From the IMG/VR virus record IMGVR_UViG_3300015171_000088, positions 1-29,410 of that record: DNA of 29,410 nucleotides. One strand, written 5' to 3'. Under the pieces are notes generated by a model. That model searched no databases. It saw only the letters and a program-made list of their open reading frames with translations, and was not told where the DNA came from. Position 1 is the stretch's first letter, and each line of letters starts with the position of its first letter. The DNA comes from a virus. This document shows positions 1 to 15,191 of this stretch, piece after piece. A program made the position numbers and the translations under genes.

Positions 1-1352
1 TCAGCTAGTAGTCCTTCTAATTTACCCTTAATCAGTAATGCCACATCCTGATGATGGATAAAGATAGTTAATTTTCTATCAGTAGAACCTAGAAATTCCA
101 TTACGGCATCTATGCAATTGTCTACTTTGGATAATCCTGTTAAATGACGCATCCTACCTAGATAGGCTAAAAGATTCATATTATCAGCCATCGAATTACC
201 AGTGAACTCTCCATCATCATATTTCTTTAGAAACTCAGCCATCATATTAGCATAAGCTTCTTCTACTTCTTTTCCTAGATCATGATATGTGTAATTACGA
301 GTGATAACTGGTAGGTCGGGTAATACTTCTTTTCTTTCACGTCTGATTATGAAGTCTTTAGTCTTAGCAGCAAAGTATTCTGGATTCTTAAGTCCTAATC
401 TCTTCATTCCTTCAACACGTACATAATTATTAATAAATCCAATCTCAGTAGGAAATAGTTCAGGATGTAGGATATTGAGGATTGAGAAATACTCCCCAGC
501 ATTATTTTTGATAGGCGTTCCGCTTAATCCTATAACATACTTCATCATAGAACAGATTTTTCTCACAGTCTTTGTCCTACCAGCGTCCGTATTCTTAATA
601 GTTTGCGTCTCATCTAGAATAACTGTTTTAATACCCATCTTGACAAACTTATCCTGAATATTCTCACCTTTCTTCTCTAATCCACCAGTCTTTTTTATAC
701 CAGTTATTTTAGACTCTCTAGCCTTTCTCTCTGCTAGAATATCATATGAGCAAATGTATGCACCGAATCCTTTTACCATCATAACGGGATCATTAATTAT
801 CAGAGATGATTTATTTAGATCAGATAGTTCAGAATCAGCATCCAATTCCTGATTAAAAACCCATTCATTAATTTCATGTCTCCATTGCATTGTTAAGGAT
901 GCTTTAGTTATTACGAGAAAAGGTCCCATCTCAGAATGTAATCTCATAGTTAGCAAAGCCTGAATAGTTTTACCTAATCCCATCTCGTCAGCGATTAATA
1001 CTCTACCATTAGCAGATTCAGTAAACTTTACTCCATCCTTCTGAAACTTATATGGAGTTTTACCAGAAAAGGATGAGATAGAATCTATTGTAGACTCTTT
1101 AGCTTTTGCAACATCCTTAATAATCTCAGAACACCCGCACGTATAACGGCGTAGTGTTACTGATCCCATTTTAATATCTTTATCTTTTGCTGTACGTTTA
1201 GAACATTTAGAACATATCATAGCAAAAGTAGATAAATGTTCTTTCTTATTTTCAGGATGACAATCACATGCACAGTGCGATGGTATAGTCACATCGACAC
1301 AATTGTAATGATCACCTAGAGCGCAATAGCGAGATAGAGTTATTGTTTCCAT
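1..1352 (-). CDS. SNF2-family DNA helicase/translocase with N-terminal Cys/His-rich region (partial, 3' end outside window)
   Basis: Translating the minus strand from the ATG at 1352 gives 450 codons without a stop up to the left edge, so the C-terminus is missing. Superfamily 2 motifs of the SNF2 type are plain: Walker A DEMGLGKT (residues 122-129), motif II DETQ (247-250, where DEAH or DEGH is usual), motif III SGTPIKNN (277-284), the SNF2-typical RRERKEVLPDLP (337-348), and the start of the second RecA domain (FIHHQDVA, about 431-438). Residues 1-75 carry many Cys/His (C10, H15, C18, C28, C30, H32, C47, C50, C72, C74), probably zinc-binding and resembling the N-terminus of the upstream protein. 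A ribosome binding site AGGAAAA lies just before the ATG. Phage SNF2 proteins are ATP-driven DNA translocases acting in replication, recombination or early gene control; which applies here is not visible. It is the last visible gene of the leftward operon. Confidence 0.92.
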   Translation of the reverse strand, partial: METITLSRYCALGDHYNCVDVTIPSHCACDCHPENKKEHLSTFAMICSKCSKRTAKDKDIKMGSVTLRRYTCGCSEIIKDVAKAKESTIDSISSFSGKTPYKFQKDGVKFTESANGRVLIADEMGLGKTIQALLTMRLHSEMGPFLVITKASLTMQWRHEINEWVFNQELDADSELSDLNKSSLIINDPVMMVKGFGAYICSYDILAERKARESKITGIKKTGGLEKKGENIQDKFVKMGIKTVILDETQTIKNTDAGRTKTVRKICSMMKYVIGLSGTPIKNNAGEYFSILNILHPELFPTEIGFINNYVRVEGMKRLGLKNPEYFAAKTKDFIIRRERKEVLPDLPVITRNYTYHDLGKEVEEAYANMMAEFLKKYDDGEFTGNSMADNMNLLAYLGRMRHLTGLSKVDNCIDAVMEFLGSTDRKLTIFIHHQDVALLIKGKLEGLLA

Positions 1353-1409: not shown

Positions 1410-2084
1410 CTAATCCATCCCCATAATCATCTTAGCAGTTTTTTCCGCTTTAGCTTTAGAGAAGCCCATTTTCATATACTTCTCAATAGCTACTTCTAAC
1501 TTAGATAACTTTTTAGTCTCCTCTTTCTCTTTTTTCTCTTTAGCGCGAGATGCCGAGAAAACTAAATAGTCATCCTTGTCAATTTTGAATCCCTGTTCTT
1601 TCATTTCCTGAATCTTATTTGTGCGTGTTTTACGTCCGGCCATCTCCTCAGATTTCAAATTAAGTAACATATCATTTCTCTCAATTATAAATGCTTCAAT
1701 TTCTTCTAACGACATCGCCGCACAGATTTTCATTGCATCATTATAGGGATTAATTCTAAATCCATCTCTCTCAATTGGGGTAGGATTTTCTAGAATAGAT
1801 ACATTATAACTACTACAACGTGAGCAAATAGTAATCTCAGCCACAGTACACTTATGCAATTCATTAACAGTTAAACCATGAGAGAAGATCGCGCCACAAT
1901 TTTTACATAGATGCTGACAAGTTTCTACTATAACTTCTATAATCTCTTTCCTCACAATCCCATCATTACATTTCACGATATGACAATCACATGAGCATAG
2001 TGGTTTATTACATAGAGTATGCTCCCCATTGTGACAGTTAATGGTTAGTATAACATTATCAGCGTTTGGATTATTTTCTATCAT
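1410..2084 (-). CDS. Cys/His-rich putative zinc-binding protein, function unknown
   Basis: 224 aa when started at the ATG at 2084. An in-frame ATG at 2099 would add five residues, but 2084 is preferred: GGAG sits 8 nt upstream and the ATG overlaps the TAA of a small upstream ORF (TAATG). The N-terminal half has CHNGEHTLCNKPLCSCDCH (residues 17-35), then C38, C56, C60, C63, C79 and CSRC (87-90), enough for two or more zinc sites. The C-terminal half is lysine/glutamate-rich and helical and ends in a short amphipathic segment (KMGFSKAKAEKTAKMIMGMD). The first cysteine cluster resembles the N-terminus of the helicase encoded just downstream, so the two may share a partner or a DNA/RNA target. 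One copy of the heptamer GCCGCAC lies at 1717. I do not recognise the family; a nucleic-acid-binding accessory factor of replication or recombination is a guess. Confidence 0.8.
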   Translation of the reverse strand: MIENNPNADNVILTINCHNGEHTLCNKPLCSCDCHIVKCNDGIVRKEIIEVIVETCQHLCKNCGAIFSHGLTVNELHKCTVAEITICSRCSSYNVSILENPTPIERDGFRINPYNDAMKICAAMSLEEIEAFIIERNDMLLNLKSEEMAGRKTRTNKIQEMKEQGFKIDKDDYLVFSASRAKEKKEKEETKKLSKLEVAIEKYMKMGFSKAKAEKTAKMIMGMD

Positions 2085-2209
2085 TACTTTTTCTCCCATT
2101 TTGCTTTAATGATATTGAGTAGAACTCTGATAGCTAATCTTTCTTCCCGTGTGGAGAAATGATTCGGACAATCTGTTATATATTGAATGCAAAATTGAGT
2201 GAGATACAT
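2084..2209 (-). CDS. small 41-aa ORF leading the leftward operon, function unknown
   Basis: ATG at 2209, preceded by AAAGGA at a spacing of 6 nt, opens a 41-codon frame. Its product begins MYLTQFCIQYITDCPNHFST and ends in a basic stretch, KAKWEKK. The TAA stop (2086-2084) shares its last base with the ATG of the Cys/His-rich gene, the usual sign of translational coupling. The good ribosome binding site and exact overlap support a real gene or a translated leader. No domain is recognised. It lies directly downstream, in the leftward sense, of the phased repeat array at 2270-2332, so that array may control it. Confidence 0.6.
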   Translation of the reverse strand: MYLTQFCIQYITDCPNHFSTREERLAIRVLLNIIKAKWEKK

Positions 2210-2269
2210 AATTATCCTTTATTTGTGGAATTGAGAAGATACTCTAATGATGTCGAAAGTCCCAAAAGA

Positions 2270-2332
2270 TTCGTGAATGATTCGTGAAACATTTCTAGAA
2301 CATTTCCGAATGATTTCGAGAACATTCTAGAA
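2270..2332 (-). repeat. iteron array 1: six TTCNNGAA-type boxes at about one helical turn
   Basis: Box starts are 2270 (TTCGTGAA), 2281 (TTCGTGAA), 2293 (TTCTAGAA), 2303 (TTTCCGAA, degenerate), 2315 (TTCGAGAA) and 2325 (TTCTAGAA). The steps are 11, 12, 10, 12 and 10 bp, so all boxes face one side of the helix. Read on the minus strand the unit approximates TGTTCTAGAAA, the same 11-mer as array 2 on the plus strand. The array sits about 60 bp upstream of the first gene of the leftward operon, so it could be an operator, an initiator-binding site, or both. Confidence 0.8.
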
Positions 2333-2463
2333 TTATTTCCCGCTAACCCGTTCGATCTAAAGGACATAGTCATAGAGTACTACATACTAGCATACTACGA
2401 GACACCACCATGGCCTATGACCGACCGACACTTTATGTCCACTAACTAGCCAATTTATGTCAC

Positions 2464-2540
2464 TATAATAATTACCTAGTCAATAATTGTTACCCTATAA
2501 TAATTATCTCAAAATAGTTATTTTTCGAATATAATAATTA
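2464..2540. repeat. AT-rich stretch with three TATAATAATTA repeats
   Basis: The 11-mer TATAATAATTA occurs at 2464-2474, 2496-2506 and 2530-2540, i.e. 32 and 34 bp apart, near three helical turns. Nearly everything between is A or T. Such a block beside iterons is what a duplex-unwinding element looks like, but -10-like promoter words are an alternative reading. Confidence 0.55.
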
Positions 2541-2576
2541 TTCTATGAAGGGGTACCTCTAAAGTACGGTGGTCTG

Positions 2577-2643
2577 GTACTAGCGGTACTGGGTAGGGTA
2601 CTAGTGAACATTAGTACTAGTGTTAGGTGTTGAGTAGTACTAG
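2577..2643 (+). repeat. cluster of four GTACTAG words
   Basis: GTACTAG is found at 2577-2583, 2598-2604, 2614-2620 and 2637-2643, with related TACTA words at about 2370-2398. Spacing is irregular (21, 16, 23 bp). Several copies extend to AGTACTAGT-like palindromes. Function unknown. Confidence 0.5.
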
Positions 2644-2845
2644 GCTATCTATATGATAATAATATATATAATAAAAAAATAAGCGAAGAAAAAGCAAACC
2701 CTAAACCCTCCCCCATCGTTTGGCCACTAAATTGCTAGGTGAACCAACTCTCTGCCGGGGGGGTCTCTGGGGGTGGTTTCCTTCATAGGAGTATATGATA
2801 CTGTTCGACTAACTTCAATAGAATCAGTGAGCTACAGCCAAAAGA

Positions 2846-2918
2846 TTCTAGAATGTTCTAGAAATACCTCTGAAATACCTCTGAAATGTTCTAGAAATGT
2901 TCTAGAAATGTTTTGACC
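2846..2918 (+). repeat. iteron array 2: seven 11-bp phased boxes, unit TGTTCTAGAAA
   Basis: Boxes start at 2846 (TTCTAGAA), 2856 (TTCTAGAA), 2867 (CCTCTGAA), 2878 (CCTCTGAA), 2889 (TTCTAGAA), 2900 (TTCTAGAA) and 2911 (TTTTGACC, degenerate). The steps are 10, 11, 11, 11, 11 and 11 bp, an almost perfectly phased tandem array. The unit reads in the opposite direction to array 1, so the two arrays form a large inverted pair around the AT-rich core. A candidate terminator follows at once (2924-2943). Confidence 0.85.
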
Positions 2919-2923
2919 ATTTC

Positions 2924-2943
2924 AGCCTATGTAAGGCTTTTTT
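2924..2943 (+). terminator. candidate intrinsic terminator at the end of array 2
   Basis: AGCCT (2924-2928), loop of 5, AGGCT (2934-2938), followed by a run of six T. No rightward gene lies upstream, so if functional it would end a short rightward RNA made across the repeat region, for example a regulatory or primer RNA. The 5-bp stem is short. Confidence 0.4.
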
Positions 2944-3020
2944 AGCTACTATTGTGGCATTTATAATTATTTTTGATACTTATATATAAACAGATAATCT
3001 AAGATAATACAGTGCTAACC

Positions 3021-3038
3021 AAAAATGGGCATGCGCCC
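3021..3038 (-). terminator. weak candidate leftward terminator
   Basis: On the minus strand GGGC-GCAT-GCCC is followed by ATTTTT. The 4-bp stem is marginal; it could act as a back-up to the strong leftward terminator at 3496-3519 or simply be a palindrome. Confidence 0.3.
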
Positions 3039-3325
3039 GTCCGATCATGAATAATTATTATGATAAAAGAGAATAAACAGATAAAAAGAGAATAACTATT
3101 CGTGGCCGATCACCTATCAGGTATGACAGATAAGAAGTCTACCAGAATGCCCCGCAGTGAAACCCAGTGACACGTAGACTGACGATCGACACTAGACCTA
3201 GGTGAGTAGTCATCTCGAATGGAATCGTGCAACCTGAAGCACTCTAGGCCAAAATCCAAAAGGGATCAAAACGTTACATAACTATTATCGTTAAGTGAGT
3301 TAATACCTGTAAAATACTTAACAAT

Positions 3326-3454
3326 AGTAAGAAAAATAACACTGTTAAGCAAATAAGTGTTAAGTAAGAGAATGAACAGTAAGAAAAATAACAGTGTTAA
3401 CTATGTCAAGCTAGACACAGAGAAGAAAAAGCAAATGTACAGTGTTAAGTAAGA
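3326..3454. repeat. purine-tract/GTTAA direct repeat family
   Basis: A 23-bp unit (AGTAAGAAAAATAACA, one C/G variable position, then TGTTAA) occurs at 3326-3348 and 3378-3400. A second unit, AGTGTTAAGTAAGA, occurs at 3356-3369 and 3441-3454. GTTAA cores also appear near 3290-3302. This is a third repeat family distinct from the TTCTAGAA arrays, lying just past the leftward terminator of the 3598-4053 gene. Candidate binding sites for a replication or regulatory protein. Confidence 0.55.
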
Positions 3455-3495
3455 TAACGAATAAAAAGCGAAATAAAGAGTCAAAATAAATAGAC

Positions 3496-3519
3496 AAAAA
3501 AAAATAGGGAAACTCCCTA
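3496..3519 (-). terminator. strong intrinsic terminator of the leftward gene at 3598-4053
   Basis: Read leftward: TAGGGA (3519-3514), a three-base loop, TCCCTA (3510-3505), then nine T (3504-3496). An outer inverted pair, GTAGACT (3542-3548) and AGTCTAC (3571-3577), lies between this hairpin and the stop codon at 3598. Together with the promoter at 4115-4143 it makes the gene a self-contained transcription unit. Confidence 0.85.
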
Positions 3520-3597
3520 GTGGGAATCTCCCCTATCCTTTGTAGACTTAATTTTTGATTCTATGGGAACAGTCTACTTACTCCCAAAAGGAAAAAA

Positions 3598-4053
3598 CTA
3601 GTCACTTTCGTCCATCAACATCGTGGCAGTTGCAATCGCCTTCGCGCGTGAAAGTTTCGGATTTTGCTTCTGCATCGCATCGGCCAACTTCTCAATCTTG
3701 ATAGCAGGACCGACCAGAGACGTTTCCATCTTGATCCGCTGATTACGCGAGAAAATAAGCTTCAAGGAATCATAGGCAAGTTTCAGGACTCCGGTTAATT
3801 CCGAAAATTCCTTGTCCACCAGTTCGCCTCCATTCTTTTTCGCATACTCATCTAACCATGCCTGGATACCTGATGCCGTAGAAGGAACTAAAACGAAGGA
3901 ATTATAATCCTTAGTTTTTCCTGCAACATCCGGGTCAGCAAATTTTCCTGTAACTTCTAGAAGTTTGAATCCTGGCGTAGCGGAAGGCACGTCGAACAGA
4001 GTTGTGTAAACTTTTTCGTTAGCGGTTGGTGTTGATACTGTCATCTCGCTCAT
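3598..4053 (-). CDS. self-contained moron-like gene, product of unknown function (151 aa)
   Basis: ATG at 4053 is preceded by CCGAGGAGA (4069-4061), a near-ideal ribosome binding site, and by a consensus-type promoter; a strong terminator follows. The product is 151 aa, soluble, with no signal peptide or membrane segment. Its N-terminal half contains KLLEVTGKFADPDVAGKTKD, a middle part looks beta-rich, and the C-terminus ends in a helical segment (LSRAKAIATATMLMDESD) that resembles the end of the Cys/His-rich protein at 1410-2084. The gene uses G+C-ending codons (GCG, TCG, CGC, ATC) far more than its AT-rich neighbours. Isolation between two gene-free regions, its own signals and foreign composition are the marks of a recently acquired cargo gene expressed apart from the lytic programme, by host RNA polymerase. 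I do not recognise the family; an accessory or host-interaction role is inference. Confidence 0.82.
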   Translation of the reverse strand: MSEMTVSTPTANEKVYTTLFDVPSATPGFKLLEVTGKFADPDVAGKTKDYNSFVLVPSTASGIQAWLDEYAKKNGGELVDKEFSELTGVLKLAYDSLKLIFSRNQRIKMETSLVGPAIKIEKLADAMQKQNPKLSRAKAIATATMLMDESD

Positions 4054-4114
4054 ATCGTTTTCTCCTCGGGAAATCTGGCTCGTTAGGTGAGCTACTCCAA
4101 TTGGCTACTCCTAC

Positions 4115-4143
4115 ATCTTACTACATTCTTGAATCGGTGTCAA
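4115..4143 (-). promoter_or_regulatory. sigma70-type promoter for the leftward gene at 3598-4053
   Basis: On the minus strand: -35 TTGACA (4143-4138), 17-nt spacer, -10 TAAGAT (4120-4115), about 60 nt before the start codon. Perfect -35 hexamer and optimal spacing. A GTCAA...TTGAC inverted repeat covers the -35 (about 4139-4155) and could be an operator. Confidence 0.8.
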
Positions 4144-4867
4144 GTACTTTTTTGACTGCCACCAGGTTTCTTTCAGCTTGGCCTACCCAGGGGGGTATCG
4201 AATGAACAGTCTAGAACAAAGTACATGCATAGGCAAGTTTGTAGACAAGCTGAATTTTGAATACTTCTTTGCCTAATAGTTCTTCAGAAAATATCTCTAT
4301 TTCTGGAATCTTTAAAGTTATCACCTCACTTTCGTATACTTCTAGGATTTGACTACTATATCACAGTTAGGGTTTTACTACTACTTCTAGCGTCGTCATA
4401 AGATCATAACAGATTCTCTCTGCCATCTTAACCGCTAAATGGTAAGAATATCCTTTCAGGATTGAAGTTTTATAGTCGAGAGAGTCCAAACATCTAAGTT
4501 TGCTGATATCTCTGTGCGGTGTTTGCCGTCCAAAGTATCTAAGGAAACTGTTGAGTAACTCTCTCGACTATTTAATAAGTATCTCATAATAGTTATTCTA
4601 TGTCAAGAAAATAATACAGAGAATCATCTATGTATTCTCATATAATAACTATCCGACCCCATCCCCCGTATACCCATAATTAATGAGTCTCCTATACGTC
4701 GCGCACAAGGGCAATACTGGTATCACGCCCATATAAATATGTATCGTAATTACTATATCACATAATAGTAGGAATTATGATTCAAATACTTCGTTCATTT
4801 TTTCTTCCCATCTTTTAGTGAACATTTCTTGCTTGCTAACCTTATGAATCTAGGCTAGATAAAAAGC
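4144..4867. other. divergent intergenic region between leftward gene and rightward late operon
   Basis: No convincing gene of normal size. Contents: an inverted pair AGGCAA/TTGCCT (about 4231-4274), the structured element at 4472-4571, a small hairpin ATCCT-TTC-AGGAT (4450-4462), a nested inverted-repeat set (AATAGTTATT 4588-4597 with AATAACTATC 4644-4653, and GAGAAT 4619-4624 with ATTCTC 4634-4639), and the perfect palindrome ATCTAG-G-CTAGAT (4848-4860) immediately upstream of the rightward -35. Two possible tiny frames were noted: 24 codons at 4202-4276, and 13 codons from the ATG at about 4778 behind a TAGGA; neither has other support. Confidence 0.5.
4472..4571. ncRNA. candidate structured RNA or foldback element closed by a 14-bp perfect inverted repeat
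   Basis: ATAGTCGAGAGAGT (4472-4485) is exactly complementary to ACTCTCTCGACTAT (4558-4571), enclosing 72 nt. Inside are a hairpin CAAAC-ATCTAA-GTTTG (4487-4502), a short hairpin CGG...CCG (4517-4528), and a partial direct repeat of the type CCAAA..ATCTAAG (about 4486-4498 and 4530-4543). That is a closing stem with a multibranch-like interior, as in many regulatory or catalytic RNAs. It matches no family I can name: there is no CUGAUGA hammerhead core and no tRNA arm. Strand is undecided because the stem reads both ways. A miniature foldback mobile element is the main alternative, but no clear target duplication flanks it. Confidence 0.55.
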
Positions 4868-4897
4868 TTGACATGGGATAGTGAATCGTGCTAGGCT
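4868..4897 (+). promoter_or_regulatory. candidate promoter of the rightward (late) operon
   Basis: TTGACA at 4868-4873 and, 18 nt on, TAGGCT (4892-4897) preceded by TG at 4889-4890, i.e. a poor -10 rescued by an extended -10. The palindrome at 4848-4860 abuts it upstream. It is the only good -35 hexamer I saw between 4144 and the first rightward gene. The weak -10 may mean that an activator is needed. Confidence 0.5.
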
Positions 4898-4931
4898 TAT
4901 AGAGACGACAGGATCGAAAAGGAGATTTTTT

Positions 4932-5309
4932 ATGAGTTTACTAGGTGAGGAAAAGAATTTAGAGGGCGAAAAAGTTTCTGCTTTAGATGTTTTTCTGGCT
5001 AGTAAAAAGACTTTGGGAGGAACTTTAAATCCTTCGGGTACTTCTGTACCTAATAGTCCTACAGATGTATATACACATCCTCCGAATACTCCATTAACTA
5101 TTGATACTAATTTATCTAAGAATCCTTCTGGAACTTCTGCTCCTAATTCTCCTGTTTCTAGCTCATCTGTAAATCCTCCTCCTTCTCTTGGCGGTTCGGC
5201 TTTTACTTCCTCTTTAGTTGAGAATTCGGAGAGGATTGCTAGGAATAGTGGCTCTGATAGTGGATATGGAGATAATCGTGGAAATAATACTCCCTCTGAC
5301 CTCTACTAA
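4932..5309 (+). CDS. Ser/Pro/Asn-rich low-complexity protein, function unknown
   Basis: The frame is open from a GTG at 4881, but the ATG at 4932 has AAGGAG (4919-4924) at a proper distance and lies downstream of the promoter, so 125 aa is preferred. The product begins MSLLGEEKNLEGEKVSALDV and is otherwise low-complexity, with two near-identical copies of NPSGTSxPNSP and many Ser, Pro and Asn. No membrane segment or enzyme motif. It is the first gene of the rightward operon. Its end overlaps the longest possible form of the next frame, but not the start chosen for that gene. Disorder suggests a linker, scaffold or interaction protein; nothing more can be said. Confidence 0.65.
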   Translation: MSLLGEEKNLEGEKVSALDVFLASKKTLGGTLNPSGTSVPNSPTDVYTHPPNTPLTIDTNLSKNPSGTSAPNSPVSSSSVNPPPSLGGSAFTSSLVENSERIARNSGSDSGYGDNRGNNTPSDLY

Positions 5310-5325
5310 TTTCTATGATACGATT

Positions 5326-5643
5326 ATGCACTCAGTTAAGGTTAAGCGTGTTCGTATCAATAGCGTGAATAATGAATCTCTTATCAATAAGAATCAGCGT
5401 ACTATTGATAATTTACGTAATGCTCTGATTTCTAACTATATCTCTGATCTTCCTTTGGCTGCTGTAGGTGGACGGGAATTAAATCCTCCTGATGGATCAC
5501 GTGATGCTTTTGTAGGAGAGGGGCGTAAGTATATTGGTATCTATACTTCTACCGAACTTGATCCTAATGGGAATCATGTTTGTGTCTTTATCACTCCTGA
5601 TGATAATAGTTATATTAATAATGTATTACAAGGTATCGACTAA
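5326..5643 (+). CDS. hypothetical protein (about 105 aa; start uncertain)
   Basis: The frame is open back to 5218, but the part before 5326 overlaps the previous gene and reads as a shadow. The ATG at 5326 gives MHSVKVKRVRINSVNNES and 105 aa. No Shine-Dalgarno is visible; another ATG at 5315 is out of frame. The N-terminal half is basic and helical; the C-terminal half (IGIYTSTELDPNGNHVCVF) looks like a small beta domain. Not recognised. It lies 6 bp before the HTH protein, its likely operon partner. Confidence 0.55.
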   Translation: MHSVKVKRVRINSVNNESLINKNQRTIDNLRNALISNYISDLPLAAVGGRELNPPDGSRDAFVGEGRKYIGIYTSTELDPNGNHVCVFITPDDNSYINNVLQGID

Positions 5644-5649
5644 TTCTAT

Positions 5650-6324
5650 ATGACCTTTCTATCTCAAACGGACGCACTTAAGTCTTTAGGTTCCTCTCGT
5701 AACTTGCTTAATAAGTTATCAGGGACTCCTGTATCTTCTAGTGCGCCCGTTCGAGTTATAGAATCTGTTAATGATAAAGATAATGAATCATTTCCGAAGG
5801 AAAACGCACGGGACACTCTAACTACTCCTACTGAGGTTATTGAGGGTGTTGTTGTTTCTGATAATGATAGATCGCAAATTTTACCTAATCCTATTCGTGG
5901 TAAAAAGTTAGGTTCTTCTCATGTATCTGAGGAGGTTAGATTACAAATTGCTACGGATTCTCTTAATGGTGTGGAACAGGTTGATATTGCTCATAAGTAT
6001 GGTATAACTGATAGAACTGTTAAAAGTGTTGTACAGGATATGCGTACCGGAAACGGCACAGAAAAGTTTAATACTGTAGTGGAGGGTAAGAAGCGAGAAA
6101 TTTCTGATTATGCTCTATCTGCTATGCTTCAGTCTCTGCACGTTATAACTCCTCATAAATTGGAAGGTTTATCTGCTAAAGATGCATCATTAGTTGCTAT
6201 GCAGTTGTCTCGCACTGTTTCTAACTTAATGCCGAAAGAGACTATTGTTGATAATCGTACCCAATTAGTTATATTTGCTCCAGGACAGAAATTGGTAGAT
6301 GATTATGAACAGGTTGAGGTATAA
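5650..6324 (+). CDS. HTH DNA-binding protein, small terminase subunit candidate
   Basis: 224 aa. Residues 1-90 are Ser/Asn-rich and probably disordered. Residues about 93-131 form a resolvase-like helix-turn-helix (EEVRLQIATDSLNG, then VDIAHKYGITDRTVKSVV). A helical region follows (150-200), then a short hydrophobic beta segment and acidic tail (QLVIFAPGQKLVDDYEQVEV). An N-terminal HTH, a helical oligomerisation region and a C-terminal tail suit a TerS that recognises the packaging site and hands DNA to TerL. It lies upstream of TerL in the same transcript, though separated by the membrane-protein cluster. A transcription factor of the operon is the alternative. Stop and next start are TAA-ATG with no gap. 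Confidence 0.55.
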   Translation: MTFLSQTDALKSLGSSRNLLNKLSGTPVSSSAPVRVIESVNDKDNESFPKENARDTLTTPTEVIEGVVVSDNDRSQILPNPIRGKKLGSSHVSEEVRLQIATDSLNGVEQVDIAHKYGITDRTVKSVVQDMRTGNGTEKFNTVVEGKKREISDYALSAMLQSLHVITPHKLEGLSAKDASLVAMQLSRTVSNLMPKETIVDNRTQLVIFAPGQKLVDDYEQVEV

Positions 6325-6561: not shown

Positions 6562-6870
6562 ATGACTGATTCTGTATGGACAGTTATTGGTGCGGCGGTC
6601 CCAGTTATAGGTGGATTGGCTACTCTGATACTACAAAATTACTATGCGGCTTTGTCTAGAGCTGAATCTACTAGGAAGTTAGATAGTATTGGTTCTACTA
6701 TTACTGAGACTAAGAAGGCTGTGGATGGTCACTTAACTAATGTTACTACAGAATTAGCTGTTACTAGTAGAGCATTAGCTACTTCTACAGGTTCTTTTAA
6801 GGATAATGTTACGGCTACTATCAATGAGAAAAATGCTTCTGACTTACAAAAGACCGAAGAAAAGAAATGA
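6562..6870 (+). CDS. small membrane protein with N-terminal TM and long helical tail (holin or spanin-like)
   Basis: 102 aa. Residues 5-28 (VWTVIGAAVPVIGGLATLIL) form one membrane span. The rest is a soluble, threonine-rich helix ending in charged residues (DLQKTEEKK), the plan of an i-spanin or of a type III holin-like protein. No lipobox protein that would serve as o-spanin is evident next to it. One GTGCGGC copy (6590) encodes the Ala-Ala within the membrane span. Part of the membrane-protein cluster 6325-7200. Confidence 0.6.
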   Translation: MTDSVWTVIGAAVPVIGGLATLILQNYYAALSRAESTRKLDSIGSTITETKKAVDGHLTNVTTELAVTSRALATSTGSFKDNVTATINEKNASDLQKTEEKK

Positions 6871-6871
6871 T

Positions 6872-6970
6872 ATGTGGAGTCGTTGCCTATGTTTTCTCCT
6901 CAATTGGCTAGAGTGTGCTTATGATCTTCTTTCTAAAAGACAGAAAAGTGAGTGCACTCTAAGTCAATGA
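6872..6970 (+). CDS. 32-aa small hydrophobic ORF, translationally coupled to the next gene
   Basis: ATG at 6872 lies one base after the previous stop. The 32-codon frame begins MWSRCLCFLLNWLECAYDLL, a short Cys/Leu/Trp-rich hydrophobic helix, followed by a basic tail (SKRQKSE). Its TGA (6968-6970) overlaps the ATG at 6967 of the next gene. Exact packing on both sides supports real translation. It could be a tiny lysis-associated membrane peptide or only a coupling leader. Confidence 0.5.
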   Translation: MWSRCLCFLLNWLECAYDLLSKRQKSECTLSQ

Positions 6971-7200
6971 CTATTATAGTTAACTTTGTAATTCAGCTAT
7001 TTTGTATATGGTTAGTCTATGGAACTATTGCATCTAATTACTTAACTTATAGTGCTAAGCAGATAATACTTTTAACTATAGCTTTTGTTCAGATGCTAAT
7101 TAGCTTATTCGTTCATGGATATAATACTGATGGAACATCGCAGAAGGTAGCTTATCTATCTTCCAAAGACTTAGAAGTAGGAACACAAAAGGAGAACTAA
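6967..7200 (+). CDS. small two-span membrane protein (holin candidate)
   Basis: 77 aa from the ATG at 6967; a GTG at 6952 is also in frame, but the ATGA overlap with the preceding small ORF favours 6967. Two hydrophobic spans are clear: IIVNFVIQLFCIWLVYGTIA (about 3-22) and a second at about 33-55 (IILLTIAFVQMLISLFV). A polar tail follows, with both termini probably on the same side. Two short spans with a hydrophilic end is the class II holin plan. It precedes a gene with a strong ribosome binding site whose AAGGAG lies inside this gene's 3' end. Confidence 0.6.
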   Translation: MTIIVNFVIQLFCIWLVYGTIASNYLTYSAKQIILLTIAFVQMLISLFVHGYNTDGTSQKVAYLSSKDLEVGTQKEN

Positions 7201-7560
7201 ATGGGATTTCTCAAGAATTTCGGTGCGGCGCTTTTGAAGATTGGTGAAGTGGTTACGGGAGTTGGTCCTATTTTCTCTCAATTTTTACCTAAAGGAGCCG
7301 CTGGTACTTTGGCTACTGTGGAAGATACTTTTACTAAGATTATGGGTACAGTTATGACTGTGGAGACATTTTTTGCCGCACTAACTAGTAAAGGATTAAC
7401 TGGTGCAGATAAGTTAAAGGCTGCTACTCCTTTGGTTTCTCAGATTATTCTACAAACTGAGGGATTAAAGGGTAAGAAGGTTAAGGATTTGGTTAAGTAC
7501 CAAGCTTCTGTGGCAGGAATTACTTCGAATATTGCAGATTTACTTAACTCTTTTGAGTAA
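7201..7560 (+). CDS. conserved-type phage protein of unknown function (119 aa)
   Basis: Start at 7201 immediately after the previous stop, with AAGGAG 7 nt upstream, one of the strongest sites in the operon. The product begins MGFLKNFGAALLKIGEVVTG, a possibly amphipathic or membrane-associating helix. The later part (LTGADKLKAATPLVSQIILQ ... ITSNIADLLNSFE) resembles, from memory, hypothetical proteins common near the lysis genes of other phages. No enzyme motif. It carries two heptamer copies (GTGCGGC at 7223, GCCGCAC at 7375), both on Ala-Ala codons. Confidence 0.65.
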   Translation: MGFLKNFGAALLKIGEVVTGVGPIFSQFLPKGAAGTLATVEDTFTKIMGTVMTVETFFAALTSKGLTGADKLKAATPLVSQIILQTEGLKGKKVKDLVKYQASVAGITSNIADLLNSFE

Positions 7561-7570
7561 TCTTTACTTT

Positions 7571-7720
7571 ATGAGTCCTGCTCAAAAATTGGTTAAGTTT
7601 ATCATTGAGGAATTAAATGTTCCCGCTAATATAGCTTTTCGTATGGTGTGTGATTTAAAAATAGAGTATAGTGATGATATAGATTGGGATAAAGAAGAAA
7701 AGAAAAATGATAACAGATAA
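7571..7720 (+). CDS. small acidic protein, function unknown (49 aa)
   Basis: The longest frame starts inside the previous gene at 7532, but the ATG at 7571, ten bases after the stop at 7560, is more likely and gives 49 aa: MSPAQKLVKFIIEELNVPAN, then an acidic, lysine-tipped tail. Helical throughout. Its end overlaps the start of the beta-propeller gene by 14 bp. Not recognised. Confidence 0.5.
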   Translation: MSPAQKLVKFIIEELNVPANIAFRMVCDLKIEYSDDIDWDKEEKKNDNR

Positions 7721-8930
7721 TCTAGTTTATGTTCCATTAGAGTATAATACTCTCAAACCTACCAAGGTAGGAGATTCTCATATTGACTCTACTTTTGGAA
7801 CTAAAATTACTAGAGTTACTGATTGTTCGACTATGTATGATGTAGCTAAGGGTTCTGGTACATTACCTTGGGTAGAACCTGAATACTCTACTATTTGTCC
7901 TTTCAGTAAACTAGGGGACTATTTCATTTTAGATTGTGTGTCTTATTTTTCTCTATTTGGTGGTGATGGTAAATTTATAGGACCATTACCTTTAGAAATA
8001 AGTTCATCTTCGGAACCTAAATGGGGATTACTGGATATTGATTATATTTATTATATAAAAGGTAACTCTTTGAAGAAATATAATGTAAATACAAAACAAA
8101 CTTTTGTTGTACGTATGTTTAGTGAGTATACAAAAATATCAGGCAAAGGTGAAAGTGATATTTCATTTGATGGTAATCACTTAGTTTTAGTTGGTGATGA
8201 TAGATTTATTTTTGTTTACGAACTAGTTTCTTCTACTAAAGGAAAAGTTTTAGATACTAGTGGATTTAATTTTGATTCTGTATATATCACAAGTTCTAAT
8301 AACGTTATAGTATCCTGGGAAAGACGTGGTAGTGAACATTTTGAGGGTATGGAACTTTTTAATTCGGATATGGATTTTATATTACAACTAGCTCAACATA
8401 ATGGACACAAAGACATTTGTTTTGACGGTTCTGATGAAGTTCTAGTATGGACTGATGATACTGATAACTTTGTAAAAAAGATTAGATTTTCTGATGGACT
8501 AATTACACCTCTGTTACAGTTAGATTGGTCATTAGCTGTTCATATCTCATGTCCTGATAAAGATTATGCATTTGTAGAAACTTATGATCCTCTGAATCCT
8601 ATAGCTTCTGCTTTTAAGCCTTATACTAATGAACTTTTGAGGGTTAAATTAAGTTCCGGTAAAACTGAAAGAATCTGTCATCATAGATCACGTGCTTTAG
8701 ATAGTTATTTATATATGCCTAAAGTTACTTGTAGTCATGATGGAAGATTTTTACTTTATGCTTCTAACTTTAATTTAGAACTTGACTATGCAGATACCTA
8801 TATGATTGATCTTTCTACTTCTAGTTTACCTTCAGCTCCTATTTTATCCAATTCTTCTCAAGTAATAATCAATAAAGATATACCAAAGTTTGTAGAGAGA
8901 CGTAAGCGTTCTGAGTTTATTACTTCTTAA
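7707..8930 (+). CDS. beta-propeller-like protein (TolB/WD40-type repeats), function unknown
   Basis: 407 aa, no signal peptide. Repeated blade-like strands with an Asp-Gly turn are visible: DISFDGNHLVLVGDD (151-165), HKDICFDGSDEVLVW (234-248), then QLDWSLAVHIS (271-281) and KVTCSHDGRFLLYASNF (339-355) with YADTYMIDL after it. From memory this order resembles large-host cytosolic or secreted beta-propellers of the TolB/oligogalacturonate-lyase-like type; no catalytic set can be assigned. A propeller between a membrane-protein cluster and TerL is uncommon. It may be a virion-associated or host-interaction protein. It overlaps the previous gene by 14 bp and ends one base before TerL, so it is made with the packaging genes. 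Confidence 0.6.
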   Translation: MITDNLVYVPLEYNTLKPTKVGDSHIDSTFGTKITRVTDCSTMYDVAKGSGTLPWVEPEYSTICPFSKLGDYFILDCVSYFSLFGGDGKFIGPLPLEISSSSEPKWGLLDIDYIYYIKGNSLKKYNVNTKQTFVVRMFSEYTKISGKGESDISFDGNHLVLVGDDRFIFVYELVSSTKGKVLDTSGFNFDSVYITSSNNVIVSWERRGSEHFEGMELFNSDMDFILQLAQHNGHKDICFDGSDEVLVWTDDTDNFVKKIRFSDGLITPLLQLDWSLAVHISCPDKDYAFVETYDPLNPIASAFKPYTNELLRVKLSSGKTERICHHRSRALDSYLYMPKVTCSHDGRFLLYASNFNLELDYADTYMIDLSTSSLPSAPILSNSSQVIINKDIPKFVERRKRSEFITS

Positions 8931-8931
8931 T

Positions 8932-10590
8932 ATGCTGACTAATACAGAACAACAATCAGATACAGTTAGAAGATGGAAGCCTAATCTGAAACAGGTTAAG
9001 TTTATGTCTCTTCCGGATACTATCTTTGAGGCTCTGTATGGCGGTGCGGCGGGTGGTGGGAAGACTGAAGTATTACTAATGATGTTTATCGCTAAACAAT
9101 ATCATAAGATTCCGCGAGTCAAAGGTATACTGTTACGTAGAACCTTTCCGGAACTAGAAGGTGAAGTTGTACCTCGTTCGCAGGATTATTATCCGATAAC
9201 TGGTGCAGAGTATGATAAAGCTAAACATATCTGGACTTGGCCTTCTGGAGCTACTTTAAAGTTTGGACATGCGGAGAATGAAGATGATATACGTAAGTAT
9301 GATTCTTCTGAGTTTCAGTATGCAGCATTTGATGAACTTACTTCTTTCACACAGTTCCAGTATAACTATATTGTATCTACCCGTTTACGATCTTCAATTC
9401 CTGGCATAATCCCAATTGCACGCTCTGGTAGTAATCCTGGTAATATCGGGCATGGATGGGTTAGAGATTACTTTGTCGAGCCTTGTAAAGAAGGTGGTAA
9501 AATCCTTGTCAATAAGGTAACGAAGCAGAAAAGAATCTTCATCCCTGCAAAGTTAGAGGATAATACTGATCTAATCAAAACTGATCCTACATATCGTAAT
9601 CGTCTAGAAGGTTTAACTAATGAGGCTGAGCGCCGCGCAAAGTTATATGGTGATTGGTATACATTTACTGGACAGGTATTTAAGTTTAGAAATGAACCTA
9701 TGCCTGATGAGCCTGATAATGCTAGACATGTTATAGAACCTTTTGAGATTCCTAATTGGTGGACTAAGATTAGAGCATTAGATTGGGGACAGGCTGCTAT
9801 GACTTATTGTGTTTGGGCAGCTATTTCTCCTTGGAAGCGGGTATATATCTATCGTGAGTATTCTCCTAAGATCGGTACTCTTATTTCTGACTGGGGTTCT
9901 GATATTTCTAGACTTTCTCAGGGAGAAGTTTACAAAGATTCAGTAATTGATCCCTCTTCTAGGGTTCGTGATAAGAAAGATAACGAGAGCATTCTAAGTC
10001 AAGTTAATACACATACGGGATATAACTGGTCACTAGCAGACAATGATAGGATTTCTGGTAAGACGCTTTGCGAAGATTATCTAAGATGGTGGCAGAAACC
10101 TATTTCCTATGTTCCTCCAGAAGGATATAAAGAAGATACTGCTAATGATATTCTTAGGAAACAAGGAGTATATGCTAGAGATGAGTACATTAAAATGTTT
10201 CTCCCTCAAGCAGAGGAAACTGGTCTACCCAGATTACAGATTTTCAAAACTTGTCCAATACTTATCAAAACTATTCCATTATGTACCTATGATAAAAATA
10301 ATACGGAAGATGTACAAGATTTCGATGGTGATGATCCTTATGATGCTTGGAGATATTTGATTAAGCGTTGTCATCTCTATTTAAGTAGTACAGAGAAAAT
10401 CGCCGCACAGGATGAGGCTAAAGGTCTTGTGATTCAAAAGTTAGAGAAAACTGGAGATATGACTGATTTCTATATGAGTATGGCTAGAATTGATGGAGCT
10501 AAATCTAATATAGCTGCTATGAATGTTCGCGGTAAATATAACTTCTTACCTGTTAGAAAAGTTCATGGAGGATTACGTAGACATGCTTAA
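8932..10590 (+). CDS. terL: terminase large subunit (ATPase/nuclease)
   Basis: 552 aa. ATPase domain: Walker A GGAAGGGKT (37-45), Walker B with catalytic glutamate YAAFDE (130-135), and a coupling segment GSNPGNIGH (166-174). RNase H-like nuclease domain: ALDWGQ (D284), VIDPSS (D340) and the late acidic pair and helix GDDPYDAWRY (466-475). It docks on the portal, pumps DNA into the prohead and cuts the concatemer. The start is ATG at 8932, one base after the preceding stop, without a Shine-Dalgarno. Two heptamer copies lie in the gene, at 9044 within the Walker A codons and at 10402. Length is normal for the family. Function is certain; the packaging type cannot be read from it. Confidence 0.96.
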   Translation: MLTNTEQQSDTVRRWKPNLKQVKFMSLPDTIFEALYGGAAGGGKTEVLLMMFIAKQYHKIPRVKGILLRRTFPELEGEVVPRSQDYYPITGAEYDKAKHIWTWPSGATLKFGHAENEDDIRKYDSSEFQYAAFDELTSFTQFQYNYIVSTRLRSSIPGIIPIARSGSNPGNIGHGWVRDYFVEPCKEGGKILVNKVTKQKRIFIPAKLEDNTDLIKTDPTYRNRLEGLTNEAERRAKLYGDWYTFTGQVFKFRNEPMPDEPDNARHVIEPFEIPNWWTKIRALDWGQAAMTYCVWAAISPWKRVYIYREYSPKIGTLISDWGSDISRLSQGEVYKDSVIDPSSRVRDKKDNESILSQVNTHTGYNWSLADNDRISGKTLCEDYLRWWQKPISYVPPEGYKEDTANDILRKQGVYARDEYIKMFLPQAEETGLPRLQIFKTCPILIKTIPLCTYDKNNTEDVQDFDGDDPYDAWRYLIKRCHLYLSSTEKIAAQDEAKGLVIQKLEKTGDMTDFYMSMARIDGAKSNIAAMNVRGKYNFLPVRKVHGGLRRHA

Positions 10591-10981: not shown

Positions 10982-11198
10982 AGGGATCGCTAAGGAAAAG
11001 GTTATGAGAAATAAGATAGGCATACAAGAGAATATAGCTAAGGATTTGGGATTATCTATGGGTGGGGTCCATCTTGGTTCTAAAGACTTCGCACATAAGA
11101 ACTATAAGCCTAAGTCTCTAAATGATTTTAAGTTTAAGGAAAATAAGATGAATAAATCTCCCCTGTCTACTGCTATTAAGCTGAAAAAAGGTAAATAA
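10968..11198 (+). CDS. small basic protein, function unknown (76 aa)
   Basis: ATG at 10968, overlapping the previous gene by 14 bp, with AGGAAAC upstream. 76 aa, lysine-rich (MSQTEGIAKEKVMRNKIGIQ ... LSTAIKLKKGK), no cysteines, no membrane span. Ends TAATG, sharing a base with the portal start. Basic charge suggests nucleic-acid or portal/terminase interaction; unproven. Confidence 0.55.
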   Translation: MSQTEGIAKEKVMRNKIGIQENIAKDLGLSMGGVHLGSKDFAHKNYKPKSLNDFKFKENKMNKSPLSTAIKLKKGK

Positions 11199-13582
11199 TG
11201 TCACCTTCTCAAGATACTACAAGAGATCAAATAGCATCTAATGATCCTCTATTTGGTAGAGAGAATTTACAGGCTATTTTGATTGACTTGGCTAAGCAGA
11301 TTAAGAATGAGGATTACTATAAAAGGTACGACCAGTTAGTAAAGGCTAAGCAGTTTAATTTGTTCTGGTCCGGTGTTCAGAAGATTTTCTGGGATAATGA
11401 TATTAATGATTTTAGAGTACCTACTCAGGATGCTTTTGTTTCAGGAGATAATACTAGAGAAGAGATTCAGTTTGTTTATGATTACGTTATCAATATTGTT
11501 AAGCCTCATGGAGAATCTTTCATTGCAGCATTATCATCTGAGCTTCCGAAAGTTCTATTCGGACCTGATGATGCTATGAATCCTGATGATATTCGTGCGG
11601 CGAAGTTAGCTAATAATAAGGCTGAGCATATTCAGTTATATAACAAGTCAAAACTGATGGCGATTTATGTTCTATATCTCTTCTTCTGTGAAGGATTTGC
11701 TGCTGCTTATGTATATCCAGATAAGGATAAGGGATACGGAGAAGTTGCTATTCCTACTTTTGGAGAACCTATTTCTGTTACGGAACCTGATAGTGTAACT
11801 TGTCATGGATGTGGAACTTCTTCTCCTACAAATACTTTGATACAAGGAAGTAATCCTCCACCAGAAAGTGAAGATGTTAATAGTTGTCCTTCTTGTGGAA
11901 CAGATGTAACAGATAATCCAACTATTCCTGGACAAGTTATACAACAACCTAATCCTCTTCCCGATACGATGGAGATTGTTACTAGACAGTTGATTAATAT
12001 CTATGGCCTAGGTAATGTTAAAGTACCATCATTTGCAATGAATCAGAAGGATTTTCCGTGGTTGGTTAACTATATAGATTCTCACTACTCAACTCTGCGT
12101 GATAAATTCCAAACTCTCAGAGATAAAATTGGTCCTGGAGAAGCTGGAGATTTTGAACGTTCCATGAGATCATCTTCGGTGATTAACTCTGATAACTTCT
12201 ATCAGTATAATCCTGAGATTAATACTTTAGAGAAATACTGGATTCGCCCTTCTATGTTTCAGTCTATCATAGATGATCAGGAGACGGAAGTTGAGGAGTT
12301 AATAGCACTCTTTCCTGATGGATGCTGTTTCTCTCTGATTGATACTTTATTCTGTGAAAGTAAGAATGAGAGTATGGATGAATGTTGGAGAGTTACAAAA
12401 GCTGGTCCGTCTAAAGGTGCACATGCTGACGCTGTTGGTAAAAACTTAATCTCTATCAATGATTCGCGTAATACTTTGCTAAACTTGATGATACAGACTA
12501 TTGAGTATGGTATACCTTCTACTTTTGCTGATCCTGAAGTATTAGACTTTGATGCCTATAATGCTACAGAAGCATCTCCCGGAACTGTATATCCTGCACA
12601 GCCTAAGATTGCAGGTTCTTCTATTGGTAATTCTTTTTATGATTCCAAGACTTCTAACTTATCTAAAGAAGCTTTAGCATTTCAGACCGCACTAGATAAT
12701 GATGCTCAATTTAATATCGGAAATGTTCCCTCAGTATATGGTGGAGCGGCAGAAGGATCGAAAACTTTAGGAGAGTACCAGAATTCTAGGGCATATGCTC
12801 TTCAGCGTTTATCTCTACCTTTTGAATACTATTCTGATTTCTATAAGGAAACTATAGCATTAGCTACCCGTAGAGCTATTAAGACTCAGATTGCTGATGA
12901 GAAATTTACTAAGCCTATAGGAGTAGATTCTTTCCAAACTGTATGGATGAAACAAGCAGACTCTAAGGGTAAATTTGATTTGATGATTGAGCAAGTTTCC
13001 TCATCCGTGCCAATTTCATGGGAACAGAAGAGATCAGTTATGATTCAGTTATTAACTATGAATAGTCCAGAGATTATGCAGTTGCTAGGTTCTACTGATA
13101 ACTTATCTGCTGTTTTGCAACTATCTGGATTAGGTGGGACTATAAAGGTTCCTAATGAGTTACAGAGGATTAAACAACTTCAAGAACTAATTCAATTACT
13201 TAATGCGGCGCCTACAGAAGTTCCTGATCCTTCTGGAGCTATAAATCCTATAGATGGTATGCCAGTAACTATAATGAAGTCTACCGTACCTATTGAACCT
13301 AATGTAGATGAAGATGAGTCTCACATAGATACTTTACGTGACTTCATGGTATCTCAGTCAGGGTTAGATCATAAAGATAATAATCCCGCTGGTTATGCAA
13401 ATTGTTTAGCTCACTTTAATGAACATAGGGAACATATGATAATGATGTCAATGCCTCCTCCATTACCTTCACCATCTGATAAACCTAACCCAAATAAGAA
13501 TAGTGAAAAAGGTAAAGCTAATAATCCTAAAGGTAATGCACCGAATCCAGTTCACCAAGGAAATGCTGTACCGGGAGTATAA
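11198..13582 (+). CDS. portal protein with inserted zinc ribbon
   Basis: 794 aa, in the usual place after TerL. Large helical protein with the portal-like C-terminal core (NVPSVYGGAAEGSKTLGEYQ, residues about 511-530, then long helices rich in Arg and Tyr). It forms the 12-fold vertex through which DNA enters and to which the connector binds. Residues 200-235 contain two knuckles, CHGC (202-205) and CPSC (230-233), making a zinc ribbon inside the protein, a feature I would not expect in classical portals. The C-terminal 60 residues are Pro/Asn/Lys-rich and disordered. Start ATG overlaps the previous stop. One GTGCGGC copy at 11595. Confidence 0.85.
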   Translation: MSPSQDTTRDQIASNDPLFGRENLQAILIDLAKQIKNEDYYKRYDQLVKAKQFNLFWSGVQKIFWDNDINDFRVPTQDAFVSGDNTREEIQFVYDYVINIVKPHGESFIAALSSELPKVLFGPDDAMNPDDIRAAKLANNKAEHIQLYNKSKLMAIYVLYLFFCEGFAAAYVYPDKDKGYGEVAIPTFGEPISVTEPDSVTCHGCGTSSPTNTLIQGSNPPPESEDVNSCPSCGTDVTDNPTIPGQVIQQPNPLPDTMEIVTRQLINIYGLGNVKVPSFAMNQKDFPWLVNYIDSHYSTLRDKFQTLRDKIGPGEAGDFERSMRSSSVINSDNFYQYNPEINTLEKYWIRPSMFQSIIDDQETEVEELIALFPDGCCFSLIDTLFCESKNESMDECWRVTKAGPSKGAHADAVGKNLISINDSRNTLLNLMIQTIEYGIPSTFADPEVLDFDAYNATEASPGTVYPAQPKIAGSSIGNSFYDSKTSNLSKEALAFQTALDNDAQFNIGNVPSVYGGAAEGSKTLGEYQNSRAYALQRLSLPFEYYSDFYKETIALATRRAIKTQIADEKFTKPIGVDSFQTVWMKQADSKGKFDLMIEQVSSSVPISWEQKRSVMIQLLTMNSPEIMQLLGSTDNLSAVLQLSGLGGTIKVPNELQRIKQLQELIQLLNAAPTEVPDPSGAINPIDGMPVTIMKSTVPIEPNVDEDESHIDTLRDFMVSQSGLDHKDNNPAGYANCLAHFNEHREHMIMMSMPPPLPSPSDKPNPNKNSEKGKANNPKGNAPNPVHQGNAVPGV

Positions 13583-14225: not shown

Positions 14226-15191
14226 ATGAAGAACATATTTCCCAAATTGCTTTGTCTTTGTTTTTTGTTTTCAGGTACAGGTTTACTTTTCGGTCAGTAT
14301 GTTGCACGTACTAATCCTTATACTGGTAAACCCGATTTAGTAAATAAAGTTCCTATTTCTTATGCTAATGGAGGATGTAATTCTTCTACATTGTGGACTA
14401 CAGGAAGTGTGTTATTTGCTGGAGCAAGTTCATGTGCTCAGGATAATGCTAACTTTTTTTGGGATAATGTAAATAAAAGACTTGGTATTGGGACGACGAA
14501 TCCGTCATCGTTATTAACGGTTGGAGGTAGAACATATATAGATATCGAAGGTTCACAATCCGACACCGGATATCCATCCGGTGTTAGAATCTCTCAACCA
14601 AGTACGACTTACCAATACTTAACGATGATTAGTCATGGAACATATCCCTGGTCACTCGGGATTATGCCGCAACCAAATAATTTTTTTGGTATCGGAACAG
14701 GGCAGAATACAGATTCGAGTTTCGTGCCATTATTCGGAGTTGATTCTTCGGGCAATGTCGGGATTGGGATAACGAATCCACAAGCAAAGTTGAATATTAT
14801 TTCAGCTAATTCTCTAACAATCAATGACATAATGTTTACCAATGATGCTTCGGGAAATTATAGAAACGGCATAGCAAATATTCAAAGTAACAGTTCAGCG
14901 GCTGGTAATGGTATGAGTTTTAGGGTTGGAGATAGTTCAGTATCCGGACAAACTACTGTTATGACTTTGCTAGGAAACGGTAACGTCGGCATAGGAACGA
15001 CGATTCCTGGAGAAAAGTTAGCAGTTAATGGTAATGTTAAAGTTGCAAATACTATTCAAGTTGGTTTATATACAGTAGCTACACTTCCAACCTGTAATGG
15101 TGGGGCAGAAGGAAAAATTGCTGGTGCAACTGATTTACTAGCTCCTACATTTTTAACAACTGCAAATGGTACGAATTGGATTACTAACTAA
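14226..15191 (+). CDS. fibre-like protein with N-terminal signal peptide
   Basis: The ATG at 14226 follows AAGGAG at good spacing; the open frame extends upstream only inside the previous gene. 321 aa. Residues 1-24 (KNIFPKLLCLCFLFSGTGL then LFGQ) form a typical Sec signal peptide. Repeated fibre motifs NxGIGTTxP occur three to four times (LGIGTTNP, VGIGITNP, VGIGTTIP), each followed by LxV, the pattern of trimeric beta-rich tail-fibre stalks. The last 50 residues (LYTVATLPTCNGGAEGKIAG) resemble ends seen in other fibre-like proteins. A Sec signal on a virion-type protein is odd, because virion assembly is cytoplasmic. Codons such as ACG, TCG and CCG at about 14480-14840 differ from the neighbours, suggesting the segment was acquired. 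Confidence 0.75.
   Translation: MKNIFPKLLCLCFLFSGTGLLFGQYVARTNPYTGKPDLVNKVPISYANGGCNSSTLWTTGSVLFAGASSCAQDNANFFWDNVNKRLGIGTTNPSSLLTVGGRTYIDIEGSQSDTGYPSGVRISQPSTTYQYLTMISHGTYPWSLGIMPQPNNFFGIGTGQNTDSSFVPLFGVDSSGNVGIGITNPQAKLNIISANSLTINDIMFTNDASGNYRNGIANIQSNSSAAGNGMSFRVGDSSVSGQTTVMTLLGNGNVGIGTTIPGEKLAVNGNVKVANTIQVGLYTVATLPTCNGGAEGKIAGATDLLAPTFLTTANGTNWITN

Follow-up and report, generated by a model that had tools for sequence, protein, structure and literature searches.

Two inverted arrays of 11-bp-phased repeats, each with a conserved dyad just inside it and with AT-rich DNA between them, occupy the same place in the genomes of 13 related tailed phages. Judging from comparison of these sequences, we take arrays, inner dyads and AT centre to be one cis-acting element, most likely an origin of replication, a reading to which we give a probability of roughly 0.6. 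The original prediction had offered the pair as an initiator-bound origin or a looped control complex. That it is a single functional unit is now strongly supported by the recurrence of inverted pair, AT centre and location in 13 phages; comparison also makes a replication origin the best-supported of its possible roles, albeit a putative origin; a gene for an initiator was not found in 11 records.

The window, by which we mean the whole stretch of DNA analysed, comes from a tailed phage and is a linear fragment of 29.4 kb, with leftward genes at its left and packaging and structural genes, transcribed rightward, at its right. Both arrays lie in a noncoding region of ~1.4 kb (2210–3597; Table 1), and Rfam and tRNA searches gave no match. 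Small genes placed like the one on the right flank occur in many relatives, with weak resemblance in sequence. In the position of the window's Cys-rich protein, several relatives encode a protein with a short, helical-looking C-terminus of a pattern like GxSxxxAxxMLxG, and a C-terminus of this kind ends many of the right-flank small proteins as well. Further AGTGTTAAGTAAG / AACAGTAAGAAAAATAA repeats lie to the right of the array pair, at window positions 3323–3480.

Table 1. Features of the window in and around the array region, with coordinates, strand and basis of assignment.
Feature	Coordinates	Strand	Basis
SNF2-type helicase, 5' part of gene, running off the window end; distal in leftward operon	3–1352	-	
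Cys-rich protein, no family match; directly upstream of SNF2 helicase	1410–2099	-	
Probable 41-aa gene with ribosome-binding-like AAAGGA; nearest gene to array 1 on its left	2084–2209	-	
Array 1: about six 11-bp-phased TTCNNGAA-type boxes, inverted partner of array 2	2262–2340	-	
Left copy of conserved inner dyad (ACTATGTCCTTTAGATCGAACGGGTTAG on minus strand)	2343–2370	-	Motif search, matrix scan, leave-one-out
AT-rich tract, candidate unwinding element	2463–2545		
Cluster of four GTACTAG motifs, centre of pair	2571–2645		
Second AT-rich tract (TATATGATAATAATATATATAATAAAAAAATAA), like central AT tract of relatives	2645–2690		
Right copy of conserved inner dyad (ACTAACTTCAATAGAATCAGTGAGCTAC)	2808–2835	+	Motif search, matrix scan, leave-one-out
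Array 2: seven 11-bp-phased boxes	2844–2921 (boxes 2846–2918)	+	Direct reading
Terminator-like hairpin and T run, adjoining array 2 on its right	2924–2943	+	Consensus match only
12-pair terminator-like hairpin at the end of the leftward gene 3598–4053, ahead of the array region	3506–3533	-	
Small protein, right flank of array pair	3598–4053	-	
Terminase	8932–10590	rightward	
Likely portal (judged by position)	11198–13582	rightward	

Direct reading of array 2 bore out the seven boxes predicted there, with steps of 10, 11, 11, 11, 11 and 11 bp. Their cores are TTCTAGAA at 2846, 2856, 2889 and 2900 and CCTCTGAA at 2867 and 2878 (these two boxes reading TACCTCTGAAA), and the last box is degenerate, TTTTGACC at 2911. 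The claim that all seven read TGTTCTAGAAA was overstated, as that unit is exact in only three of them (2854, 2887 and 2898), one more box retaining TTCTAGAA. The cores of array 1 stand at 2270, 2281, 2293, ~2303, 2315 and 2325. Measured against 1,000 dinucleotide shuffles of region 2100–3598, TTCNNGAA occurs there nine times (0.47 expected, shuffle maximum 5) and TTCTAGAA six times (0.06 expected, shuffle maximum 2), and self-identity at a lag of 11 bp reaches 0.82 over 44 bp in the window.

Because TTCTAGAA is palindromic, the polarity of an array depends on flanking bases and on the order of its boxes. On both counts array 1 carries the unit of array 2 on the minus strand, as had been proposed: the two align with a score of 51 when one is inverted and 37 directly, and the position matrix of array 2 reaches 33.9 on the minus strand of array 1 and 15.0 on its plus strand (shuffled maximum 5.3). 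The arrays share an order of box types, in which a 10-bp first step and two strong boxes are followed by weak and then strong boxes; the weak boxes, of T-C-TC-GAAA type, number one in array 1 and two in array 2. A weaker direct match between them is also present (CCAAAAGATTC..GAATG at 2262 and 2838). Short open reading frames cross both arrays, but we rejected a coding explanation because the 11-bp period changes frame at every unit.

The interval of ~510 bp that the arrays bracket contains AT-rich tracts, as originally described, and the AT centre of the window is split, with the GTACTAG cluster between its two tracts. Three TATAATAATTA repeats in the left tract (2464, 2496 and 2529) are 32–33 bp apart, or about three helical turns. 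The motif GTACTAG, at 2577, 2598, 2614 and 2637, is found nowhere else in the window, and within this cluster lies GAACATTAGTAC (2606), which we take to resemble the cyanobacterial LexA box.

Only a clade terminase profile reached the relatives used for comparison. An exact search of viral contigs with two adjacent units found no match, no close relatives were found when neighbouring genes, portal, capsid or terminase were each used singly, and a distant DNA search of phage records likewise matched nothing. A terminase alignment led to five short contigs of 45–47% identity, and a second alignment built from those five (the clade terminase profile) led to a clade ~38–53% identical, with many contigs of 20–48 kb; full contigs were retrieved and oriented before comparison. 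Gene order in the clade is that of the window: a leftward replication module, the noncoding region, then small and large terminase and portal genes running rightward. In relatives the leftward module encodes an SNF2 helicase, a PD-(D/E)XK nuclease, a Sak4-like protein, a DNA polymerase A carrying a uracil-glycosylase (UDG) domain, and a DUF3987 primase/helicase. Two contigs, G007 and G009, are apparently complete or close to it, as the portal spans their ends and a 20-base end sequence recurs 127 bases from the other end. On contig L167 (G003), the product of 3873–6323 is a DNA polymerase A with an N-terminal uracil-DNA glycosylase domain, from a family common to 11 clade members, and 6709–7941 encodes a ParB-like N-terminal domain fused to an N6/N4 DNA methyltransferase, of a family found in seven members.

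Scanning 65 clade sequences at a lag of 11 bp (self-identity of at least 0.70 over 44 bp) revealed 24 segments, and all of those that were placed lay in noncoding DNA ahead of the terminase genes, between the leftward replication and rightward packaging operons. Lags of 10, 12 and 13–14 bp gave none, four and none, respectively, and most other common lags are divisible by 3 (coding) or by 11. At the same threshold, no lag-11 segment was found in 944,656 bp of loci from phages with distant terminases. Threshold and choice of pairs were fixed after the first arrays had been seen, so these counts are descriptive.

To find partners, a position matrix from one array was run over about 800 bp on each side, and the null was given by 20 mononucleotide shuffles of each region. 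An inverted partner scoring above the shuffled maximum was present in 13 phages (the window, G004–G008, G013, G015, G016, G019, L100, L113 and L147), and in all 13 the opposite-strand score exceeded the best same-strand score; weaker same-strand scores above the null were seen in the window, G004 and G016. Most pairs span 383–501 bp, that of the window 649 bp. In 11 of the 13 (binomial p about 1e-10), the unique most AT-rich 40-mer of the contig lies inside the pair and nowhere else, with G007 a further tie; in the window it is at 2959, just outside. Where it is inside, it falls mostly at 0.47–0.59 of the pair length.

Three phages (G009, G010 and G014) had no array at the 0.70 threshold, four 11-bp units near 35470 of G009 being visible by eye, and arrays were absent from HMO-2011 and HTVC115P (50 kb each), EBPR podovirus 3, Mel-JY34 and three Manatee Spring phages. 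Contig L094 has, in the homologous place (3496–3549), a single 11-bp-phased array of DnaA-box-like 9-mers (TTTTCAACA, ATATCCACA and TTTTCCACA) at steps of 10–11 bp, which holds all four matches of that contig to the DnaA-box pattern and has neither AT-rich core nor partner; as a pointer to an origin this single case is only suggestive. The Desulfofustis phage L211, which has a related polymerase, carries arrays of 17-bp period near its divergent point (41519–41620, 43133–43213 and 43287–43349); these may be an equivalent element with another unit length. An exact 11-bp tandem repeat (GGACTCGGAGC) lies at the end of the circular record L214 (vir526; 44140–44208), with ATGCAAAAAATGCA-type repeats in inverted orientation and AT-rich DNA nearby, and G016 has an 8-bp tandem repeat array at 8376–8466 with 0.91 self-identity.

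The dyad just inside the arrays (CTAAGTCC...TCAATGACTTA; consensus gCTAAgTCCtTTaGaaTCAATgACTTAc) is conserved, its half-sites TAA..T/A..TTA being almost invariant. A Gibbs search of pair interiors at width 20, with AT runs masked, scored it at 371 against about 250 for shuffled sequence. When a matrix was built leaving out the scored phage and its close kin, 14 of 19 contigs had their best genome-wide match within the region. In the window the left and right copies scored 17.6 and 19.5 (shuffled contig maximum 13.4), and a third site, in coding DNA at 14805, scored 18.4, so the dyad is enriched in the array region rather than exclusive to it. Further copies lie outside the pair near other intergenic sites (G015, 10054; G019, 1732; G016, 7075) and suggest that the predicted dyad binder acts elsewhere too; in four MAGs with distant terminases the dyad was not in excess. 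Across 28 copies, pairing in the dyad stem was no better than with shuffled partners, that is, compensatory changes were not seen, which speaks against a hairpin or hairpin-type priming site (ssi/pas); the dyad is therefore read as a protein-binding site in duplex DNA.

The unit sequence itself turns over rapidly. Unit matrices were alike only among the closest phages, and not in every case (null median 0.37, 95th percentile 0.57): G015 and L147, with terminases 90% identical, had a unit similarity of 0.25, while L147 and G019, whose terminases are also 90% identical, had one of 0.73. The DNA around the arrays of G015 is nonetheless 70–79% identical to that of L147 and G019, the right-flank gene included, and the AT core aligns too; with flanks and core shared and units unrelated, the layout was inherited and the units replaced. 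Units change faster than a universally conserved binder would allow, and our best reading is that their sequence is set by a putative binder that itself changes fast. The right-flank small protein (predicted structure of low confidence, pLDDT 63) is probably not what sets specificity, since its gene is kept, at 78% DNA identity, between G015 and L147/G019 while the units differ. We also rejected a small HTH-like protein encoded left of the arrays (G005, G006, G008 and L100), whose similarity does not track that of the units; in G005 and L100 it is only 37% identical and the units are the same.

In lambda and iteron plasmids the iteron units are 17–22 bp long. At the origins of lambda and of iteron plasmids, iteron arrays lie next to an AT-rich unwinding element (PMC10797057, PMC5043065), and the region described here has the same parts: tandem, helically phased repeats in noncoding DNA, an AT-rich stretch next to them and adjoining replication genes. 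It departs from lambda ori and from the oriV of RK2, F and R6K, in which one iteron set lies on one side of the AT region, in having two mirror-image 11-bp arrays that flank an AT centre; there is also an extra dyad on the inner side of each array, and no known Rep or O protein is encoded. Bacterial oriC is alike in that a single origin contains box arrays pointing in opposite directions (the left and right DOR of E. coli), with DnaA-like phasing, but its AT region is at one end rather than between the arrays, and its DnaA boxes differ from the units here, except in L094. The DnaA box TTWTNCACA is absent from the arrays of the window and, among relatives, present in L094 only. Rep_3, lambda O and the DnaA C-terminal domain had no match in 11 records, the window itself being a fragment, and an initiator outside the recognised families is possible. 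The origin concept is a known one; as far as we could find, in open full text, the two-array variant has not been described.

On this reading, a sequence-specific protein would bind each array cooperatively, occupying one box per helical turn along a single face of the DNA and so building a filament or wrapped complex on that array. The two mirror-image complexes would then act on the AT-rich DNA between them and melt it, and the SNF2 helicase, primase/helicase and polymerase encoded just to the left would load at the melted centre, so that replication would start here and probably proceed in both directions. Cumulative GC skew, put forward as a check on the origin, proved uninformative: skew minima lie in the same few kilobases, yet leftward genes right of the arrays retain negative skew in seven of nine phages examined, so skew follows the coding strand rather than the arrays and is no test of an origin.

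Transcription control is the main rival to an origin, and a serious one. The arrays could be operators for a regulator of the leftward early operon, and perhaps of a rightward transcript, acting by roadblock or loop while replication starts elsewhere; we regard this as unlikely. It would account for the strong leftward sigma-70-type promoters, perfect or near-perfect, in the region of G004, L113, G009 and G014 (weaker in G002), for an array 1 that ends about 50 bp before the probable first gene of the leftward operon, for the terminator-like hairpin after array 2 and for the extra dyads outside the pair in G015, G019 and G016. However, the pairs of most members, that of the window among them, contain no recognisable promoter (other promoter types would escape such recognition), two mirror arrays of four to seven boxes far exceed a usual operator, and an operator has no need of a symmetric centre so rich in AT as to be the contig's maximum. 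Both functions may also be combined, with an early promoter inside the origin as in lambda, where transcription is needed for origin activation (PMC5043065). Promoters in the region of several members, together with the origin-like anatomy and the lambda precedent, would suit this arrangement, which we hold as a tentative possibility given that most members, the window among them, lack a visible promoter; being a form of the origin reading, it shares in the confidence placed there.

A partition site is suggested by the unit length, which equals that of R1 parC, where 11-bp repeats likewise form two clusters of several units and ParR requires two or more of them (PMC9426499). The R1 repeats, however, are reported to be direct, with the clusters placed around a promoter; here the clusters are inverted about an AT maximum, and a promoter lies inside the pair in some relatives but is not recognisable in that of the window. 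Neither a ParA-type ATPase (with a working control) nor an integrase was found in 11 records, several of them close to complete, which makes the phages appear virulent, a lifestyle in which partition would bring little benefit; a StbA/ParM model found no match either, but its control likewise matched nothing. We consider a centromere highly improbable, and hardly less so a packaging (pac/cos) signal or structural DNA with no specific binder, such as phased bending A-tracts. Many units do carry an A3–A5 run once per turn, but the GATACCCGAGA (G006) and GCAGACAGGCG (G013) units keep the phase with no A-tract; and the region, though it precedes the terminase genes, sits beside early genes and, in the window, about 2.7 kb away from the likely small-terminase gene.

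For most environmental phages the start of replication is unmapped. An architecture that is conserved and easy to find predicts a specific origin in each of at least 13 genomes. Its fixed layout with swapped units points to a specificity switch in phages that carry an SNF2, Sak4 and polymerase A module. A precedent exists in the PLE satellites of Vibrio cholerae, in which origin specificity differs between close relatives and the origin and the DNA-binding domain of RepA, iterons and binder, are swapped together (PMC8263062); the three PLE iterons are semi-palindromic and ~30 bp long, and their RepA is known, whereas here there are 11-bp inverted arrays and a putative binder. We suggest, as a conjecture that may well prove wrong, that this virulent phage family retains an unchanging, symmetric layout of its origin (array, dyad, AT core, dyad, array), in which the 11-bp units are swapped between close relatives. 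If so, sister phages would bear unrelated recognition sequences, and binder and array would form an exchangeable specificity cassette, with satellites, superinfecting relatives or origin-cutting nucleases as possible drivers of the swapping.
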